Shown here: positions 56,004-59,998 of the stretch, piece by piece | How positions within the stretch are numbered: position 1 is the first letter of the stretch | Layout of the letters: each line of letters begins with the position of its first letter | Assembly: GCA_913054455.1 (NCBI GenBank) | Contig: CAJXIL010000001.1 | Location: 1-64,000, forward strand | Direction of reading: 5' to 3' | DNA length: 64,000 nucleotides | Source of the DNA: an uncultured Roseobacter sp. | GTDB taxonomy: Bacteria > Pseudomonadota > Alphaproteobacteria > Rhodobacterales > Rhodobacteraceae | Made by a program: the position numbers and the translations under genes | Notes under the pieces: generated by a model | What the model was told of the DNA's origin: nothing | The model's input: only the letters and a program-made list of their open reading frames with translations | Database searches by the model: none

Positions 56004-56030
56004 TGTCACAAAGGCTCTCATCCAACCGTC
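56004..56030 (+). promoter_or_regulatory. ECF41-type sigma factor promoter
   Basis: TGTCACA (56004-56010) and CGTC (56027-56030) are separated by exactly 16 bases, the published promoter signature of ECF41 sigma factors. It lies 30 bases before the three-gene operon that encodes an ECF41 factor, so the operon is very probably autoregulated. Confidence 0.85.
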
Positions 56031-56060
56031 ATATCTCTGAAACTCGAATTTGGAGGGATG

Positions 56061-56447
56061 ATGCGAAACTTGTTAATGATCGGGATTGGGGGGCTCTCAG
56101 TAATGACTGCCGCCTATATGTGGACCGCCACCCAGCACTGGTATGACACTATTCCGGGGGTCAGTCTTACCGGCCCGTTGAACTCCCACTTTGCGAAGGA
56201 TGTCGCGCTAGCCTATCTGACAAGCGGGGTCGCGTTGATCTGGGCTGGGGTAAAACAGGATAGATATATTGGCCTGTTTGGCGCTGCTTGGTTGGCGTTA
56301 CATGCTCTGTTTCACATCTGGATCTGGGTCCATCGGGGCGCGCCTGTAGACTTAGTTGCGCTTATCAACCTTACAGGTATTCAATTGCCTGCCTTTATTG
56401 GCCTTGCCTCGGCGATCAGCCTGACTTCGGAAAAGGTGAAAACATGA
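56061..56447 (+). CDS. Small four-helix membrane protein of the ECF41 operon
   Basis: This is a 128-residue protein with four hydrophobic segments: LLMIGIGGLSVMTAAYMW, VALAYLTSGVALIWAGV, YIGLFGAAWLALHALFHIW and LPAFIGLASAISL. I do not recognise the family with certainty. A pair of ATGs occurs at 56058 and 56061; GGAGG at 56052-56056 suits the second. Its stop overlaps the start of the AhpD-like gene by 4 bases. Being first under an ECF41 promoter, it may be a membrane component in the redox role of the operon. Confidence 0.75.
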   Translation: MRNLLMIGIGGLSVMTAAYMWTATQHWYDTIPGVSLTGPLNSHFAKDVALAYLTSGVALIWAGVKQDRYIGLFGAAWLALHALFHIWIWVHRGAPVDLVALINLTGIQLPAFIGLASAISLTSEKVKT

Positions 56448-56986
56448 TCCTTAGACTTCTCAAAGCAGGCATTCGGCGGTTCGGATCGCGTTACAATTAC
56501 GATACAACCTATATGACCCATGTTGCAGACATCTCAACATCGGCAGGACTTCGACTATCTATGCTATCGACCTATAGCCAGTTCCGTGGCCCGCAAAAGG
56601 CCCAGAACGTCTGGGCCGGCGCCATGCTTGCATCGACACGGGAAGGAGACTGTGGGCCATGTGTGCAACTGATTGTTGATATGGCGTTGGAGGCCGGAGT
56701 TCCGACCGACCAAATCGCTCGTTGCCTCACGGGCCATGCGAAATCGGCCGGGGAAGTTGGCTTAGGATTCAGATTTTCCCATGCTGCCATTTCTGACTCT
56801 CCAGAATTGGAAAGCCTGCGCAGGGAGATTGAAACACGCTTTGGCGAAACAGCCGTCGTTGCGGCGTCATTTGCGGCTTCTAGCGGACGCATATACCCAG
56901 TGTTGAAACGAGGCCTGGGCTTCGGTCATGCTTGCAGTCTTGTGACGATCGAAGACGAACCAGTAAAGGTCCTGCACCAAACATGA
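56444..56986 (+). CDS. AhpD-like / carboxymuconolactone decarboxylase-fold protein
   Basis: This is a 180-residue helical protein. The redox motif C70-G-P-C73 in EGDCGPCVQLIVDMALEAG (core GDCGPCVQLIVDM), followed by a helix with GVPTDQIARCL, is typical of AhpD/CMD-fold peroxidase-like proteins. Genes of this fold are the classic neighbours of ECF41 sigma factors. It overlaps both neighbours by 4 bases (ATGA). The AhpD family's usual histidine after the second cysteine is here Val-Gln, so strict peroxidase activity is uncertain. Confidence 0.85.
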   Translation: MILRLLKAGIRRFGSRYNYDTTYMTHVADISTSAGLRLSMLSTYSQFRGPQKAQNVWAGAMLASTREGDCGPCVQLIVDMALEAGVPTDQIARCLTGHAKSAGEVGLGFRFSHAAISDSPELESLRREIETRFGETAVVAASFAASSGRIYPVLKRGLGFGHACSLVTIEDEPVKVLHQT

Positions 56987-57858
56987 ACATCTCGGTTGAA
57001 ATATTTGAAGCGGAGCGAACCAAGCTGATTTCGCTTTGCTATCGCATGCTGGGCGAACGTGCGCGTGCGGAGGATGTGGTACAGGATACCTGGCTGAAAT
57101 GGGCGGTGGCGGACAGAGGTCAGATTGACAACCCAGCGGCTTGGCTGCGCCGGGTTGCCACGAACATCGCGATAGACACCCTGCGCAGCGCGCATCACCA
57201 ACGCGAGGTATATGTAGGTCCCTGGCTTCCCGAGCCTCTCATTCAATCAGAGACGCTAGAGCCAAGGCACCCGTTTGAGCTTGCCCAGGAATGCGAATTG
57301 GCCCTGTTGTGGGCCATGGAACGTCTCACCGAAAGAGAACGCGCAGCGTTTATTCTTCGGGAGGCGTTTGATGCCAGCTACGCGGAAATCGCTGACACGC
57401 TGGGCACAACGGAAGCCAGCTGCCGTCAACTTGTCAGTCGCTCTCAGAAGAAGTTACAAGACTCCGGACCTCGCTTCGATGCGACACCAGAGGAAGTATC
57501 TGATTTGAGTCAGCGCTTCTTCATGGCGATCATGGCGGAAGATTTTGACACAGCCCTCTCTCTCTTGAGCCCCAGCTCAATTGCGTTGTCAGATGGTGGC
57601 GCCAAAAGACGCGCAGCCCGGCGCCCGCTCGTGGGTGGGAGCGAGATCCTTCAAGTGTTCCGTGCTTTGTATGAGAAAGCACGGAACGAGCCGGGTTGGA
57701 CGACACAAATATCAACGGTGAATTCCAAGCCCGCGTTTCTGCGCTACCAATTCGGACAGTTGGATTCCATCACGACACTCGCCCCAGATTACCACGGGAA
57801 AATTGCCTGGCTATATATCATGCGAAATCCAGACAAAATCCAAGAAACCCTACATTAG
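56983..57858 (+). CDS. ECF41-family RNA polymerase sigma factor
   Basis: This is a 291-residue extracytoplasmic-function sigma factor with a long C-terminal extension. Region 2 is LCYRMLGERARAEDVVQDTW and region 4 is LTERERAAFILREAFDASYAEIA (core SYAEIADTLGTTEASCRQL). The linker carries WLPEPL, a hallmark of ECF41. The extension from about residue 165 is a SnoaL-like domain with DGGAKRRAARRP at the place of the group's DGGGK motif. ECF41 factors lack a classical anti-sigma factor and are controlled by this extension. It is the last of three coupled genes. Confidence 0.93.
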   Translation: MNISVEIFEAERTKLISLCYRMLGERARAEDVVQDTWLKWAVADRGQIDNPAAWLRRVATNIAIDTLRSAHHQREVYVGPWLPEPLIQSETLEPRHPFELAQECELALLWAMERLTERERAAFILREAFDASYAEIADTLGTTEASCRQLVSRSQKKLQDSGPRFDATPEEVSDLSQRFFMAIMAEDFDTALSLLSPSSIALSDGGAKRRAARRPLVGGSEILQVFRALYEKARNEPGWTTQISTVNSKPAFLRYQFGQLDSITTLAPDYHGKIAWLYIMRNPDKIQETLH

Positions 57859-58180: not shown

Positions 58181-59998
58181 ATGAAACAGCCATTTACTGA
58201 TCTTGAAATAAAAAAAGCCGGTTCAGGTTTCTACGAAGGGCACAGCGTCGAAATCGCTCTGCTGAGCAAAGGTATTATCGTCGCTCTGGTGATTTGGGCT
58301 TTGATCTGGCCCGCAAATGCCAATGGTGTTCTAGGGAGCCTGAATTGGCGAATTCTTGAAGATTTTAATGCATTCTACATCATCATAGTTGGCTTCTTTG
58401 CGTTCTTTTTGCTGGTCGTTGCAGCCCTGCCGCAGACAGGAAAGCGGGTCATGGGCAGAAATGGGGAAGCCCCTGAATTTTCAAACTTTTCATGGTTTTC
58501 AATGATGTTCGGGGCAGGTCTGGGCGTTGGCCTGATGGTATTTGCGACTGCAGAGCCCTTGGGTCTTTGGGGGTCAAACCCCTTGGTCGTTTCCGGTGCC
58601 GTCGAAGGCAATACAACCGAGGCGCTCCAATCAGGCTACCGCTATACCTTCTTGCACTACGGTTTTCATGCCTGGGCCATTTATGTGGTGACGGGGCTGT
58701 CACTGGCCTACTATGCCTATACACGCGATATGCCACTCACCATTCGTTCTGCTTTGACTCCATTGTTTGGCAAATGGGTCAACGGCATACTGGGACATGT
58801 CGTTGATGTCTTGGGCGTTGTTGCAACCATTCTTGGTGTTTCGGTGACGATTGGGTTTGGTGTCAGCCAGTTCATTGACGGGGTTTATGCAATTACTGGC
58901 ATGGAATGGATGATGGACATGACCGGAGATGCGCCAGCGCCGGGAACAGTTGGGCTGATTGCAGGCCTCGTTGTCATCATGGGCCTGTCTATCATATCCG
59001 CGGTTTCAGGTGTCGGTCGCGGCGTAAAATACCTTTCAAACCTGAACTTGGTTCTGTCGGTCATACTGCTGTTGACCTTCGTGGTGTTCGGCTCGTTCCT
59101 GTTCGCCATGACGACCTATGCGAGCGCCTTTGTAGACTATGTCTTGAACTTTGCCTCGCTCAGCTTTGGGGCCTATGGCCCGCAATCGGCAGACGCATTT
59201 GCGGCGGCCTTGCCTGAGGCAGCAAAGCCTTTGGCCGGTGAACTTAAGGCCGGTGCCACCAATGCTTGGGGATCTTACGATGGGTTTGTTGGCGGACTGA
59301 CAGGCGCCGCGGCTGAGCTTCCAGCGGAAACCCTGGCTGTGGTGTATGAGGCTGGCAATGAGGGGCGTCAGTTTGGTTGGCAGGCTGGCTGGACAACCTT
59401 TTACTGGGCTTGGTGGATCGCCTTTTCACCCTTTGTCGGTCTGTTTCTTGCACGGATCTCCAGAGGGCGCACCGTGCGTGAATTCATTATAGGCTGCGTC
59501 TTTGCACCTGCGATGGTTTGCTTCGCATGGATGACCATTCTGGGCGGCACCGCCATTGATCTTGAACTGACTGGAGCCGCCGAAGGCGTCATAATCGGCG
59601 CCTCAAACACATCCAAGCTTTTTGTTACCCTCGGCGAAATGATCTCAGGCGGCTTTCTGTCTGGCATCACCATCATGTGCGTGGTCTTAATCATGACGTT
59701 CCTGGTGACATCAGCGGATTCAGGCATCCTGGTGATGAATACGATCATGTCAGGTGGCGAGCAGGATACAGGCATCAAACATCGCATCGTTTGGGGGGTT
59801 TTGCTGACGTTTGTAATCGGCGCGCTTCTCATCGCTGGCAAGACCAACGGTGGAGCCGACCCCATGGAGGCCTTGAAAAGTGCAATGATTATTGGGGCGC
59901 TGCCATTCACCGTCGTAATGGGTTTAATGTGTCTCGCGTTGGTCAAAGCGCTGTTCCGGGACGGAAAACGAGAGGCTCTTTCAACGCCTTCGAACTAA
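58181..59998 (+). CDS. BCCT-family betaine/choline/carnitine-type transporter
   Basis: This is a 605-residue membrane protein with about twelve helices. Family landmarks are GAGLGVGLMVFATAEPLG for the glycine-rich betaine-site helix, GWTTFYWAWWIAFSPFVG and LARISRGRTVREF. These proteins import quaternary or sulfonium compounds such as glycine betaine, choline, carnitine or DMSP with sodium or protons. An unusually long segment (about residues 340-400, Ala/Glu-rich) lies in the middle loop. It precedes the mde genes, so a sulfur-containing substrate is possible. A strong terminator follows. Confidence 0.93.
   Translation: MKQPFTDLEIKKAGSGFYEGHSVEIALLSKGIIVALVIWALIWPANANGVLGSLNWRILEDFNAFYIIIVGFFAFFLLVVAALPQTGKRVMGRNGEAPEFSNFSWFSMMFGAGLGVGLMVFATAEPLGLWGSNPLVVSGAVEGNTTEALQSGYRYTFLHYGFHAWAIYVVTGLSLAYYAYTRDMPLTIRSALTPLFGKWVNGILGHVVDVLGVVATILGVSVTIGFGVSQFIDGVYAITGMEWMMDMTGDAPAPGTVGLIAGLVVIMGLSIISAVSGVGRGVKYLSNLNLVLSVILLLTFVVFGSFLFAMTTYASAFVDYVLNFASLSFGAYGPQSADAFAAALPEAAKPLAGELKAGATNAWGSYDGFVGGLTGAAAELPAETLAVVYEAGNEGRQFGWQAGWTTFYWAWWIAFSPFVGLFLARISRGRTVREFIIGCVFAPAMVCFAWMTILGGTAIDLELTGAAEGVIIGASNTSKLFVTLGEMISGGFLSGITIMCVVLIMTFLVTSADSGILVMNTIMSGGEQDTGIKHRIVWGVLLTFVIGALLIAGKTNGGADPMEALKSAMIIGALPFTVVMGLMCLALVKALFRDGKREALSTPSN

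Follow-up and report, generated by a model that had tools for sequence, protein, structure and literature searches.

Why an ECF41 sigma factor operon should begin with the gene for a small membrane protein, and whether that protein informs the sigma factor or belongs to what the sigma factor switches on, is the question raised by a locus in a 64,000-nucleotide stretch of DNA (the window) from an uncultured Roseobacter sp. A 2012 study described ECF41 sigma factors, their promoter and their partner genes for carboxymuconolactone decarboxylase (CMD), oxidoreductase and epimerase, and drew hypothetical genes within ECF41 loci without studying them (PMC3426412). No membrane partner is named for ECF41 in those parts of a 2022 review that were available (PMC8999054), and the gene may have been noticed earlier elsewhere. 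The locus is presented here as a variant of a known ECF41 operon type, and first sight of the membrane gene is not claimed. Taken as a whole, the reading that we consider reasonably probable is that of an autoregulated ECF41 operon in which the membrane protein and an adjoining dithiol protein are the output and form an envelope-linked redox or detoxification pair.

The operon consists of three genes on the + strand, encoding a membrane protein of 129 aa (56061..56447), a dithiol protein of 180 aa that is a remote CMD relative (56444..56986) and an ECF41 (SigJ-type) sigma factor of 291 aa (56983..57858), with an ATGA overlap at both junctions. The earliest possible start of the first gene, at 56058, lies 27 bases past the CGTC of the promoter; the second ATG, at 56061, is the likelier start because it is better spaced from GGAGG and is common to the relatives. 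Downstream of the operon, at 58181-59998, is a gene for a 605-aa transporter-like membrane protein, of BCCT type by eye, which is also found downstream in the closest relative (L007); the flanks differ in other relatives.

The sigma factor scored 289.8 bits against the NCBIfam SigJ model (cut-off 271) and matched the M. tuberculosis SigJ structure 5xe7 nearly end to end (E 8e-49), the C-terminal extension included. Pfam regions 2 and 4 were both found, together with a C-terminal extension of the ECF41 kind of about 100 residues. The original prediction had recognized an ECF41 member from WLPEPL and DGGAK, and this identity was borne out. WLPEP (W81-P85, 57223-57237) lies in the linker joining regions 2 and 4 and is invariant across nine aligned sequences, and the extension carries DGGAK (57592-57606) and also NPDKI (57826-57840), as expected of an ECF41 extension, in which we take motifs of the DGG.K and NPDK type to be conserved. 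The adjoining gene encodes only a remote CMD relative, and this missing clear CMD link is not decisive because ~30% of published ECF41 genes have no link to a CMD, oxidoreductase or epimerase gene (PMC3426412). Judged by its sequence and by its promoter, the sigma factor is an ECF41 member, and its gene is the only ECF41 sigma gene in the host genome.

The promoter at 56004-56030 (+ strand), with TGTCACA as the -35 element (56004-56010), a 16-base spacer and CGTC as the -10 element (56027-56030), is, as had been predicted, an exact match to the published motif TGTCACA-n16-CGTC (PMC3426412). In R. sphaeroides and S. meliloti, ECF41 promoters of this form have been located from transcript ends (PMC3426412, PMC6180224), and one of the loci compared here (L027) has a promoter identical in every letter to that mapped for R. 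sphaeroides RSP_0606. The motif occurs once in the window, and at least one match was obtained in 14 of 100 shuffles; a sigma-70 promoter scan of the region found none, with 1.4 expected. Of 54 loci spanning four architectures, the window's own locus excluded, 52 carry the motif upstream of whatever gene comes first (0.62 expected from shuffled upstream stretches), and the spacer was 16 in 51 of these. In nine good relatives it is found at nearly equal distance despite differing flanking genes. Its conservation indicates that the promoter is real and lends support to the predicted autoregulation, and in this species the promoter probably depends on the sigma factor of its own operon.

The genome-wide motif search that had been proposed was run on the host genome, a draft of 3.88 Mb in 237 contigs that is 86% complete. 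The TGTCACA-CGTC pattern with a spacer of 15-17 was found four times, the operon promoter included; a second match was inside a peptidase-like frame and a third opposite a long coding frame, and a relaxed promoter pattern gave two further matches, both inside long frames. With the strict 16-base spacer the operon promoter was the sole intergenic match. The fourth match, intergenic and with a spacer of 15 (L004:1501-1526), resembles tandem Pho boxes and lies 5' of a phosphate-binding-protein-like gene, and serves as a caution for motif scans. A wider regulon in the host genome was considered and rejected; because the remaining matches are in or opposite coding frames or are Pho-box-like, the operon appears to be the sole convincing ECF41 target in this draft genome, which agrees with the finding in two other species that the only target found for the ECF41 sigma factor was its own operon (PMC3426412).

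The three genes recur as a unit. Scanning 84,980 species genomes with the membrane protein turned up nine good relatives, each of which has these three genes in this order. At least 10 copies of the membrane family were found in 150 Rhodobacterales genomes, 9 of them directly 5' of dithiol and ECF41 genes; among the matches listed, nine of the other ten ECF41 matches in these genomes have an ordinary NGCxxCxxMH-type CMD gene and no membrane gene, and for one partial match no partner gene was found. The full trio was present in at least 13 of 289 alphaproteobacterial genomes, representing at least 10 families, to which later matches add two more. No sign of a spread beyond Alphaproteobacteria was seen among the matches listed from a sample of the phylum, all of which belonged to this class. 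The survey of ECF41 loci envisaged in the original prediction thus found the membrane gene to recur in related loci. Architectures of membrane and sigma genes (L084, L089, L103), of dithiol and sigma genes (L068-L073) and of CMD and sigma genes are also present. A quick tree built from 53 sigma factors places the window within a clade of 20, all with the trio (SH-aLRT 99). The presence of the membrane gene changes about 8 times on this tree, with fewer changes forced by the well-supported branches; partners are therefore swapped or lost while the sigma factor and the promoter stay.

Two of the genomes are unusual in other respects. L031, L037 and L038 lie on one contig (genome G038) and comprise a CMD and ECF41 locus, a membrane, dithiol and ECF41 locus and a lone membrane gene 5' of an amidase-like gene. 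The trio of L065 (G175) looks degenerate, with F in place of the first cysteine of CxxC, stops in the dithiol frame, a shortened sigma factor and no promoter motif, which may reflect decay or an assembly error.

The most likely role of the membrane and dithiol proteins is that of output, not sensor, of the switch. They are regarded as targets because they are found behind ECF41 promoters with no adjacent sigma gene, and because the membrane gene is found beside CMD genes where there is no sigma gene. A membrane and dithiol unit (L062:2935-3902) and a dithiol gene (L074:2877-3527) each follow an exact ECF41 promoter and lack a neighbouring sigma gene, and both genomes have a separate CMD and ECF41 locus with its own promoter on another contig (L116, L117); these units are possible targets in trans, and the regulon may thus extend in trans. 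Neither a sigma gene nor an ECF41 promoter accompanies the membrane gene at L093:3021-3874 and L094:2975-3813 (the latter in reverse-complement coordinates), where it directly precedes an ordinary CMD gene. Its plasmid copies, rhizobial and other, have SDR, NmrA-like, MBL-fold and alpha/beta-hydrolase genes nearby. Lone copies on rhizobial and Bosea plasmids (L083, L099, L101, L105) stand beside SDR/NmrA-like oxidoreductase and alpha/beta-hydrolase/MBL-fold genes, which are partly enzyme classes used by ECF41 loci elsewhere.

The original prediction had also allowed that the membrane protein might supply the sigma factor with a signal, in which case it would sense the state of the envelope or its redox state and control the sigma factor in the way that membrane anti-sigma factors do. 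Its gene is the first of the operon, on one transcript with the sigma gene, and in L084, L089 and L103 lies directly 5' of the ECF41 sigma gene with no CMD gene between, an arrangement that would suit such a role. However, no cytoplasmic anti-sigma domain was found in the protein, which is nearly all membrane helix, and because its predicted cytoplasmic parts amount to a few residues there is no room for an anti-sigma domain of known kind. The gene is missing from about half of the Rhodobacterales ECF41 loci, among the matches listed, and is without a neighbouring sigma gene in L062, L093, L094 and the plasmid loci, and ECF41 sigma factors are held to be controlled by their own fused domain. 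Signal input through the membrane protein is therefore unlikely.

The output reading leads to the chemistry of the two proteins. The four-helix membrane protein expected from the first gene was confirmed at the level of structure prediction, with four long helices at residues 2-23, 43-66, 69-92 and 99-120 (pLDDT 84). Its charges obey the positive-inside rule with both ends inside, which would place H44 (56187-56189), D48 (56199-56201), H82 (56301-56303) and H86 (56313-56315; P0001 numbering) near the outer face. These residues are invariant in an alignment of 18 diverse family members, and the predicted three-histidine/one-aspartate cluster resembles a site for a metal or cofactor. The protein contains no cysteine in this species and none is conserved across the family. 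This makes thiol exchange between the two proteins unlikely, and the idea was discarded; of the earlier proposal of a redox partner, a redox role in general may hold and thiol exchange as its means falls away.

No match to the membrane family was found in Pfam or NCBIfam. Sequence searches of PDB-solved structures yielded none for the membrane or the dithiol protein (a 0.12 match to glucan synthase was regarded as chance), and structure searches gave weak matches only for both. One family considered was DoxX, with the operon then being a variant of the known DoxX-thiol oxidoreductase complexes. The membrane protein has four helices and small size in common with DoxX-like membrane proteins, and TMEM35A/NACHO, which we take to be grouped with these, was among its top matches in the PDB structure search (prob 0.99, TM 0.58, E 0.26). 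That match is weak, however, and no significant sequence-profile relationship was found, there being no Pfam match and an hhalign probability of 2% against DoxX_2 proteins of related genomes (7-row set). To our knowledge, the invariant H/D/H/H pattern is not a feature of DoxX proteins. Membership in DoxX was rejected, and an operon of this type is very unlikely.

The dithiol protein had been called AhpD-like, of which the CxxC and a remote CMD relationship stand. It scored 14.6 bits against the Pfam CMD model PF02627, below the cut-off of 23 (E 0.034); its family compared with ordinary CMDs by hhalign at 94% and E 9e-8, with CxxC aligned on CxxC, and a fold search placed CMD, AhpD and Bmp8 on top, without significance. 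The CxxC occupies the same place of the helical fold as in the AhpD/CMD family, and its two cysteines, C70 and C73, are present in 19/19 aligned sequences. D69, C70, G71 and C73 (in D69-C70-G71-P-C73, 56648-56662), P152, K155, G159 and an extra cysteine, C164 (56933-56935), are invariant. In contrast to AhpD/CMD proteins, the dithiol protein is longer, carries the invariant P152, K155, G159 and C164 and has no histidine after CxxC. A histidine four residues past the second cysteine, invariant as H56 in the ordinary ECF41-linked CMD set, was found in 0/19 of the dithiol sequences, and AhpD peroxidase activity is therefore not to be assumed. At the profile level, the protein appears to be a remote, altered CMD relative.

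It is highly improbable that the two upstream genes are mere passengers behind the promoter with no common function. Although architectures change often (the roughly 8 membrane-gene changes on the sigma tree), gene order, overlaps and distance to the promoter are repeated in at least 10 families whose flanking genes differ, and the pairing of membrane and CMD genes is also seen outside ECF41 loci.

In the autoregulated operon that we propose, the SnoaL-like C-terminal domain would hold the sigma factor back until it meets a small molecule, and the released sigma factor would transcribe the operon from TGTCACA-N16-CGTC, giving more sigma factor and two effector proteins. In B. licheniformis and R. 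sphaeroides, truncation of the ECF41 extension raises activity and its full removal abolishes it. The membrane and dithiol proteins would act together in a shared pathway, the dithiol protein through its CxxC and perhaps C164, and the membrane protein through its outward-facing cluster, which could hold a metal or other cofactor. The redox part of this proposal is weakened because deletion of ECF41 sigma and CMD genes in published work produced neither a reproducible phenotype nor an oxidative-stress phenotype (PMC3426412), and direct contact of the two sites is not obvious because the dithiol cysteines are presumably cytosolic and the membrane invariants are predicted to be outside. A rather doubtful extension is that the membrane protein represents a new enzyme family of the envelope, one that binds a cofactor or metal (signature HF..D and H...H) and works in one pathway with CMD-superfamily CxxC proteins. 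That pathway would be the long-missing function of ECF41 sigma factors in Alphaproteobacteria, and might also supply the ligand that their SnoaL-like domain senses.

The closest known systems are R. sphaeroides RSP_0606-RSP_0607 and S. meliloti SMb20029-rpoE9, which have the same promoter form, a sigma factor with a fused C-terminal domain and a CxxC protein gene 5' of the sigma gene on one transcript (PMC3426412, PMC6180224). In both the CMD gene is first and no membrane gene is reported, whereas here the membrane gene is first. The R. sphaeroides-type CMD (L027) has the ordinary NGCxxCxxMH, whereas the CxxC protein of the window is of a remote type with DCGPC, in which that histidine is absent and one more cysteine is invariant. 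M. tuberculosis SigJ has the same sigma architecture over nearly its full length, including the SnoaL-like domain, but is distant in sequence from the sigma factor of the window; the comparison covered the sigma factor alone.

A membrane family with no Pfam or NCBIfam model thus joins the short list of ECF41 partners, and the ECF41-linked pathway, whatever its nature, can involve the membrane. The recurrence of an unrelated second protein behind the ECF41 promoter narrows the question of the signal and purpose of these widespread sigma factors. The pairing of membrane and dithiol proteins across many Alphaproteobacteria is a concrete handle on the role of ECF41, and offers defined residues for mutation.
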